Shown here: positions 44,111-59,440 of the stretch, piece by piece | Position numbering within the stretch: the stretch's first letter is position 1 | Layout: each line of letters starts with the position of its first letter | Source of the DNA: Tabrizicola sp. | Lineage (GTDB): Bacteria > Pseudomonadota > Alphaproteobacteria > Rhodobacterales > Rhodobacteraceae | Length of the DNA stretch: 64,000 nt | Direction: 5' to 3' | Assembly: GCF_030373185.1 (NCBI RefSeq) | Contig: NZ_JAUCZH010000005.1 | Location: forward strand, 124,001-188,000 | Notes under the pieces: generated by a model | Seen by the model: the letters and a program-made list of their open reading frames with translations, nothing else | The model's database searches: none | What the model was told of the DNA's origin: nothing | Program-made: the position numbers and the translations under genes

Positions 44111-44176
44111 TGATTAAAATTCGGCTTCCTCTCTGCGCAAATATCCCACAGGGGTCCGGGGGTGTGAAACCCCCGG
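44111..44176 (+). repeat. TGTGAAA-loop hairpin element, copy 1
   Basis: A conserved upstream box (TAAAATT .. CTTCCTCTCTGC, then CAAATATCCCAC) leads to stem CCGGGGG (44156-44162), loop TGTGAAA, stem CCCCCGG (44170-44176). It follows the SDR stop and is convergent with rsmB. Probable terminator or mRNA 3' end. Confidence 0.75.
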
Positions 44177-49105: not shown

Positions 49106-49173
49106 GACTAAAATTGTGCTTCCTCTCTGCACAAATATCCCACGGGGAGCGCGAGGGGTGTGAAACCCCTCGC
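49106..49173 (+). repeat. TGTGAAA-loop hairpin element, copy 2
   Basis: TAAAATT .. CTTCCTCTCTGC, CAAATATCCCAC, then stem GCGAGGGG (49151-49158), loop TGTGAAA, stem CCCCTCGC (49166-49173). Follows truB and is convergent with rplT. Upstream box matches copy 1 nearly base for base, while the stem sequence differs but pairs. Confidence 0.78.
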
Positions 49174-49200: not shown

Positions 49201-49234
49201 AAAAGAAAAGGCCCCGCGTCACCGCAGGGCCTTT
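49201..49234 (-). terminator. rho-independent terminator of rpmI-rplT
   Basis: On the minus strand AAAGGCCC (49234..49227), a 12-nt loop, GGGCCTTT (49214..49207), then a T-rich tail TTCTTTT (49207..49201). 23 nt past the rplT stop. Confidence 0.85.
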
Positions 49235-59365: not shown

Positions 59366-59440
59366 CCGGAGGGTTTCACACCCTCCGGACCTCCCGTGGA
59401 GTATTTGGGAAAAGAGCAGGGAGATTTTGGGAAAATTTTA
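59366..59440 (-). repeat. TGTGAAA-loop hairpin element, copy 3
   Basis: Read on the minus strand: TAAAATT (59440..59434), a box with CTCCCTGCTC, CAAATACTCCAC, then stem CCGGAGGG (59388..59381), loop TGTGAAA, stem CCCTCCGG (59373..59366). It follows plsC on its own strand and is convergent with the SMR gene. Confidence 0.75.

Follow-up and report, generated by a model that had tools for sequence, protein, structure and literature searches.

A probable class I intrastrand triplex motif behind a conserved head in a widespread intergenic repeat of the Rhodobacteraceae

Why would three hairpins in one stretch of DNA keep the same loop, change both arms of their stems together and carry a conserved sequence in front that a plain terminator does not need? 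This question is raised by three elements in the window, by which we mean the whole stretch of 64,000 nucleotides that was analysed. The initial annotation placed them at 44111-44176, 49106-49173 and 59366-59440, each with a paired stem around a TGTGAAA loop, 3' of a predicted stop codon on its own strand and inside a convergent predicted gene pair. Coordinates, stems, loop and setting were all confirmed for the three. In all three, a pyrimidine box is followed by AAATAYYCC, then by a purine run (R1) and a short linker, and last by a hairpin of a purine arm (R2), a loop and a 3' arm (Y); the pyrimidine box and AAATAYYCC form the conserved head of the family. The parts listed below were assigned from sequence, R1 of each copy also by the mirror rule described in the next section, and TAAAATT of copy 1 also by its count in the family.

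44115..44121, + strand: copy 1, TAAAATT, an optional extension and minor feature of the family
44125..44136, + strand: copy 1, pyrimidine box CTTCCTCTCTGC
44139..44147, + strand: copy 1, head AAATATCCC
44150..44154, + strand: copy 1, R1 AGGGG, presumed third strand
44155..44157, + strand: copy 1, linker TCC
44158..44162, + strand: copy 1, R2 GGGGG, 5' arm of the hairpin
44163..44169, + strand: copy 1, loop TGTGAAA
44170..44174, + strand: copy 1, Y CCCCC, 3' arm
49109..49115, + strand: copy 2, TAAAATT extension
49119..49130, + strand: copy 2, pyrimidine box CTTCCTCTCTGC
49133..49141, + strand: copy 2, head AAATATCCC
49144..49149, + strand: copy 2, R1 GGGGAG, mirror of R2
49150..49152, + strand: copy 2, linker CGC
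49153..49158, + strand: copy 2, R2 GAGGGG
49159..49165, + strand: copy 2, loop TGTGAAA
49166..49171, + strand: copy 2, Y CCCCTC
59434..59440, - strand: copy 3, TAAAATT extension
59409..59420, - strand: copy 3, pyrimidine box CCTGCTCTTTTC
59398..59406, - strand: copy 3, head AAATACTCC
59390..59395, - strand: copy 3, R1 GGGAGG, mirror of R2
59387..59389, - strand: copy 3, linker TCC
59381..59386, - strand: copy 3, R2 GGAGGG
59374..59380, - strand: copy 3, loop TGTGAAA
59368..59373, - strand: copy 3, Y CCCTCC

The first base of R1 in copy 1 departs from the code given below, leaving four of five triads that fit, and GG at 44175-44176 can also pair with the CC of the linker. Copy 2 adjoins an ordinary intrinsic terminator of rplT (minus strand, window 49201-49234); a similar terminator lies 3' of rplT in all 15 same-genus loci examined.

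The purine run mirrors the 5' arm of the hairpin

The compensatory changes in the stem that the initial annotation had described are real. Twenty diverse copies aligned gave 23 double-change cells against 8.5 in shuffles, a value that none of 500 shuffles reached and that also lay above slid controls, and 92.5% of the stem cells were paired, a percentage that leans toward structure since the 20 copies were chosen with a stem rule. In this alignment R2 and Y covary as the two sides of a Watson-Crick stem would. What the first reading missed is the purine run before the hairpin. At the level of sequence R1 is the mirror image of R2: in mirror register, G stands opposite G (G-C in the stem), and A or T stands opposite A (A-T in the stem). 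The available text of PMC4666352 gives this antiparallel code as that of the purine-motif triplex. When R2 is other than poly-G, R1 usually mirrors it, as in GGGGAG/GAGGGG of copy 2, GGGAGG/GGAGGG of copy 3 and GGGAGGGG/GGGGAGGG at C3:128113. Among the 91 copies of the source genome with a measurable R2, which is only 5 nt long in 51, the mirror is perfect with a 3-nt linker in 58, shows one departure in 15 and fits neither description in 18. Twenty-three of these have an A in R2: 14 are perfect, 2 show one departure and 7 misfit at a 3-nt linker, most of the last having, by reading, a linker that is longer or itself a hairpin.

Searches in which R1 was left free gave the same picture. With R2 fixed as GGAGGG (35 places counted in 7 of 295 genomes, 28 of them among those listed), the base opposite A was A in 24 and T in 4 of the 28 listed places, and G or C in none. 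With R2 fixed as GAGGGG (10 places, 5 of 295 genomes), R1 was GGGGAG in nine and GGGGAA in one, that is, A opposite A in all ten and, in one, a second A opposite G. A broader search, for R2 containing GGGARG, covered 395 genomes, of which 46 had matches; of the types among the 114 places listed, two were known beforehand from the source genome and most others were new. Opposite A, in mirror register, these listed matches have A 87, T 20, G 9 and C 4 times (120 positions, a few of the 13 cases with G or C being rows split wrongly in parsing); opposite G they have G 712, A 17, C 11 and T 3 times. A or T therefore faces A at 107 of 120 positions in mirror register versus 36 of 120 in direct register among the 114 places listed, and at 78 of 89 versus 7 of 89 when only asymmetric R2 are taken (83 places listed, 38 genomes). 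Altogether 819 of 863 positions in the 114 listed places obey the triad rule in antiparallel orientation, including cases of several simultaneous changes, such as R2 GGGAGGA with R1 AGGAGGG and R2 GGGGGAAG with R1 GATGGGGG.

A third set was anchored on the loop, with both R1 and R2 free, and comprises 150 places among those listed, from 7 of the 19 genomes searched. Here the A's are matched at 40 of 42 positions in mirror and at 3 of 42 in direct register; permutation gave a mean of 21.1 and a maximum of 30, and none of 10,000 permutations reached 40. Of these listed places, 128 fit everywhere with a 3-nt linker, 19 depart somewhere and 3 have another spacing, and 769 of 789 positions obey the triads in 147 of the 150. 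Loci from named species add, among those listed, 12 more A-containing pairs that match and 2 in which T faces A, with mismatches too (e.g. L170, L236, L244); all these R1/R2 counts come from related copies and are not independent events. With third strand, R and Y following one another along a single strand at short spacing, the element has the layout of a class I motif. Taken together, the mirror and the stem make it very probable that a triplex architecture is under selection.

Distribution, gene context and history of the repeat

A BLAST search with copy 1 found 41 places in the source genome, copy 1 included (best other E=7.4e-26). The genome-wide covariance-model search proposed by the initial annotation, with a model built from the 20 diverse copies, revealed a dispersed repeat: at least 123 places at E<=0.01 and at least 139 at E<=0.1 in the 3.6-Mb source genome, both lower bounds since the best 150 candidates per genome were scored. 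Twelve other genomes of the genus have from at least 35 to at least 127 copies each at E<=0.01, and eight genomes from other families of the class have none at that threshold. In 61 of 80 genomes of the family, each from another genus, the model finds matches at E<=1e-5, and in 19 it finds none, under stricter filters and with the best 69 candidates at most scored. The pattern AAATAYYC-N12..22-GTGTGAAAC occurs 33 times in the source genome, and its reversed control not once across all 19 genomes searched. Named carriers of the hairpin include Tabrizicola, Xinfangfangia, Gemmobacter and Rhodobacter, and plasmids of Paracoccus, Gemmobacter and Thalassococcus carry it as well; from these named matches we infer that the carrier family is the Rhodobacteraceae in the broad sense. 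In 4 of 80 loci among the named-species matches listed, the bacterium is unrelated and the box is present with the hairpin absent, so that the box pattern alone gives chance matches. Rfam returned no match at the gathering score in the whole window. On balance the element is probably a widespread intergenic repeat of the family, consisting of a conserved head and a class I intrastrand triplex motif.

Variation and context were read from 101 elements of the source genome (111 rule matches minus 10 that failed a pyrimidine filter), a set that probably includes at least one spurious row (C1:848909, which falls in a gene) and includes a few elements of another hairpin class. AAATA is nearly fixed in the 101; the box has four main variants, CTTCCTCTCTGC, CTTGCTCTTTTC, CTTTCTCTTCTC and TTCATCTGTCC, with 6 copies fitting none. 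Two features common to the three window copies do not extend to the family: the TGTGAAA loop is found in 29 of the 101 and an exact TAAAATT in 7. Box type is coupled to the two bases after AAATA in these elements, box CTTGCTCTTTTC going with ACTC in 42 of 44 copies and with ATTC in the other 2, and the three other main boxes with ATCC in 51 of 51; box type also changes at sites shared with relatives. An alternative downstream part, CCCGCCGGAGGC, can follow the same box and AAATAYTCC with no G-run hairpin, often with a second repeat, CCGAGCCGGTTGGCGC-loop-GCGCCAGAGGCGAG, behind it (L119:1656-, L132:2571-, L388 in the relative G007, and many of L164-L268). Elsewhere the 3-nt linker is swapped for an extra hairpin between G runs of apparently equal length, at L028 (C2:183410-), L041:2937-, L115 (C8:247251+), L128 (C2:221277+) and L310, and a few inserts contain TTCAAG.

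Our own gene finder puts 97 of the 101 copies in gaps flanked by predicted genes on both sides; of the other 4, 3 fall within a predicted gene and 1 has no gene downstream. Of the 97, 31 sit in convergent gaps, 27 in tandem gaps on the strand of the genes, 32 in tandem gaps on the opposite strand and 7 in divergent gaps. The convergent setting of the window copies is thus shared by 31 of 97 and is not general, nor is their position after a gene of the same strand, given 27 same-strand versus 32 opposite-strand tandem copies. The proposed bias to gene 3' ends survives in part: strand ignored, 90 of the 97 (31 convergent, 59 tandem) adjoin a 3' end in the source genome, and the bias is not strand-specific. 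Divergent gaps are under-used by the element when set against gaps of at least 70 bases in hand-picked control stretches and the window (8 convergent, 45 tandem, 23 divergent; Fisher p=9e-5, source genome). Same-strand tandem copies lie close to the preceding gene, with a median of 11 nt from stop codon to box. Copies in G007 number 57 on the plus and 60 on the minus strand, and both intergenic placement and lack of strand bias, as told for TM_ECO, are found here. Read forward, 0 of the 101 copies have a T run after the hairpin, and read backward 2 do. Interruptions of the G.U versus A.C kind, examined as a clue to the strand read as RNA, came to 27 wobbles among 228 elements and were scattered across the contexts. 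Seven contexts could be read on annotated plasmids: 2 tandem on the strand of the genes, 2 tandem on the opposite strand, 1 convergent and 2 divergent; three further records are unannotated there, and PLSDB annotation is incomplete. Contexts in named species were left unused, as the gene finder placed 17 of 75 hairpin elements inside genes, and still 14 of 54 when the filters were stricter; at threshold 20 this unreliable finder counted 12 in tandem gaps on the strand of the genes, 9 in tandem gaps on the other strand, 4 convergent and 8 divergent, 14 inside genes and 7 with a gene missing on one side. Some copies stand in back-to-back pairs, boxes inside and hairpins outside (L043:3010-/3042+, L125, L140, L015; in G007 C1:565425/565475, 1289814/1289867 and 3547556/3547619), and in some of these the boxes form an inverted repeat.

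How old are the individual sites? Among 59 loci of relatives that align to element stretches of the source genome, and that were best-scoring or pattern-chosen matches, 28 have a source-genome element at the same site (within 130 nt) and 31 have none listed there. Of the 30 site pairs listed, 28 keep the same orientation, the two flipped ones being the back-to-back partner of another copy. An even sample of 20 copies spaced along the G007 chromosome gave 10 that share site and orientation with the source genome, including one of the other hairpin class; a further 3 align to a source stretch without an element and 7 do not align, 3 of these being unrecognised by the element rule. We put chance sharing at about 10%, extrapolating from the 76 gaps of at least 70 bases in 223.5 kb of control to the whole genome, which has 123 copies. 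The element is thus often inherited in place. At single sites R1, R2 and Y switch jointly (L386/L027, L080/L108, L294/L011, L286/L030), for instance from GGGGG/GGGGG to GGGGAG/GAGGGG between L027 and L386 and to GGGAGG/GGAGGG between L011 and L294. L032 and L273 differ by a single change, A to T in R1, and the source copy at L039 has G in R2 while A in R1 and T in Y are kept, L295 matching fully. Beside rplT, the site of copy 2, an element is present in 6 of 15 same-genus loci (one altered), and the 260 nt read at each of the other 9 contain none, several of these having a neighbour other than truB. Across the aligned loci, then, species and genera have many sites and orientations in common, with joint changes in R1, R2 and Y.

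Proposed fold and competing explanations

Single-strandedness during replication, in a transcription bubble or under torsional stress would allow R2 and Y to form a hairpin, in whose groove R1 could lie antiparallel as a purine-motif DNA triplex. From the mirror code we infer such a triplex fold of R1 on R2-Y. Placed between genes, the fold might serve as an orientation-independent barrier or boundary that slows or insulates passing polymerases; the head is perhaps a protein site, and as RNA the hairpin may contribute as well, whichever way it faces. The initial annotation read the covarying stems as selection on RNA structure, which is no longer the best reading, given that R1 follows a DNA triplex code, tandem copies face either way (27 versus 32) and T runs are nearly absent. 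Its remark that the part upstream of the stem is not explained by a plain terminator was sound, and R1 with its purine-motif code offers an account of it. Purine-motif triplexes are stated, in the available text of PMC4666352, to be unable to form in RNA; together with the either-way facing in tandem gaps this makes selection on DNA a better fit than selection on RNA, and the element acts, in our estimate, somewhat more probably as DNA than as RNA. A barrier or boundary role between genes is put forward tentatively and is rather unlikely: the E. coli triplex motifs had, in the same text, neither terminator nor promoter activity and were not protected from DMS in vivo (PMC4666352), a result that speaks against a strong barrier. 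The fuller picture, in which the base triples that covary across dozens of genera reflect selection on the third strand and an intrastrand DNA triplex is a working part of bacterial chromosomes, serving the whole family at gene boundaries with a head sequence of its own and probably a reader protein of its own, is possible, if somewhat doubtful.

The strongest competitor, in itself unlikely, is a hairpin at transcript 3' ends under RNA selection, acting as a Rho-assisted end, an exonuclease block or a processing site, with the box as an RNA loading or binding site. Covarying stem pairs, a pyrimidine-rich box and the closeness of same-strand tandem copies to the stop codon (median 11 nt to the box) would all suit it, but it leaves the tandem copies facing both ways (27 same, 32 opposite strand) and the T-run counts (0 of 101 forward, 2 of 101 backward) unaccounted for, has no need for R1 to mirror R2, and meets the statement that purine-motif triplexes do not form in RNA (PMC4666352, in its available text). 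Spread by a transposase as a mobile palindromic repeat, of REP/BIME or MITE-like kind and intergenic through tolerance only, would explain the many copies, the back-to-back pairs and both orientations, the under-used divergent gaps of the source genome and the roughly half of the sites that relatives do not share. We nevertheless regard it as very unlikely: the other half is shared in the same orientation, a Y1 transposase (PF01797, the one type searched for) occurs in 0 of 9 same-genus genomes, the source genome included, and we know of no simple copying mechanism that would match R1 to R2 in mirror. The same transposase is present in 2 of 5 other genomes of the class and in 5 of 14 control genomes.

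The same mirror also permits the geometry of a class III motif, in which the reverse, C-rich strand would be the functional one and form a pyrimidine-motif RNA or DNA triplex, a type that can form in RNA according to the available text of PMC4666352. What weighs against this reading, and makes it highly improbable, is the T found opposite A in R1 among the matches listed (20 of 120 in the GGGARG set, 5 of 42 in the loop-anchored set): on the C-rich strand it would place A against A-U, outside the T.A-T and C.G-C code, whereas it fits the purine motif. Least of all do we expect a G-quadruplex with the C arm as competitor, for although some types have four GGG runs (GGGTGGG-TCC-GGGAGGG) and related archaeal repeats can switch to a quadruplex (PMC8044849, in its available text), only 1 of 101 source copies has four GGG runs before the loop, and GGGGAG/GAGGGG types lose G runs and keep the mirror. 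Pairing of R1 with the 3' arm by Watson-Crick rules was rejected, as it predicts the direct register, seen at only 7 of 89 A positions in asymmetric types, and an intrinsic terminator was rejected on the T runs (0 of 101 forward, 2 of 101 backward). Terminator-like sites in general numbered 7 against 14.5 expected by chance, one of them (49155-49139, minus) overlapping R1 and R2 of copy 2. Promoter-like sites numbered 5 among those listed against 2.2 expected (sd 1.3); the one in copy 1, TTCACA-17-GATATT on the minus strand at 44168-44140, is built from the loop and the AAATATC head and was dropped, as loop and spacing differ between types. Nor did the 117 copies on the G007 chromosome point to a replication polarity of Chi- or KOPS-like kind, the maximum two-arm imbalance being 29 against a shuffle mean of 25.1, with 91 of 300 shuffles as high.

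Comparison with known repeats

To our knowledge, it is still an open matter whether triplex DNA has any role in living cells. REP and BIME elements with their RAYT transposases are short extragenic hairpins in many copies and back-to-back pairs, as here, but the present element has a purine third strand, and no Y1 transposase was found in the source genome and 8 others of the genus. Intrinsic terminators likewise have a G+C-rich hairpin, often near stop codons; they differ from the present element, which is without a T run, stands in either orientation and has a third strand. Within the open-access full text of PMC, no paper on the element was recognised; a study of Paracoccus sRNA has the words motif and repeat absent from its main text as far as available (PMC5107571).

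The closest likeness in bacteria is to PIT/BoxC/TM_ECO, which have three blocks in one strand with G.G-C and A(T).A-T triads and which, like the present element, are short, intergenic, present in many copies, without strand bias and sometimes in inverted back-to-back pairs (PMC4666352, available text). TM_ECO is a class II motif (Y, R, third strand) with 9-nt stems and one consensus in that text (PMC4666352), whereas the present element is class I (third strand, R, Y), has mostly 5-9 triads and a conserved head, and varies in sequence with the triads kept. The TM_ECO/BoxC pattern CCCTCNCCC-N3-6-GGGNGAGGG-N3-GGGNGAGGG does not describe the listed copies, which run G-rich, G-rich, C-rich with other stems. 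About half of the present sites are shared with a relative, whereas TM_ECO has been linked to instability (PMC4666352, available text); the words Rhodobacter, Paracoccus, Roseobacter and alphaproteobacteria are absent from the main text of that paper. Repeats of Methanomicrobiaceae come close in another way: their order is G-rich third strand, G-rich arm and C arm around a central loop of 3-5 nt, with one base other than G in the first half and one A in the second, they are intergenic, about half tail-to-tail and 11% head-to-head, without orientation bias, and a triplex was indicated in vitro (PMC8044849, available text). They differ in being archaeal, in having copies identical within genomes and in their four G runs, and covariation of the third strand and an AAATAYYCC head are absent from the available description (PMC8044849).

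What the present family adds to the known triplex repeats is the conserved head, a variety of sequence in which the triads are kept, and sites shared between relatives. As TM_ECO is described as near-identical from copy to copy, selection on its triplex is hard to separate from copying. In the present family the third strand keeps step with a changing sequence, and therefore the comparison itself becomes evidence. With tens to more than 100 natural variants per genome in the genus, and relatives in Paracoccus and Rhodobacter, the question can be put to the test.
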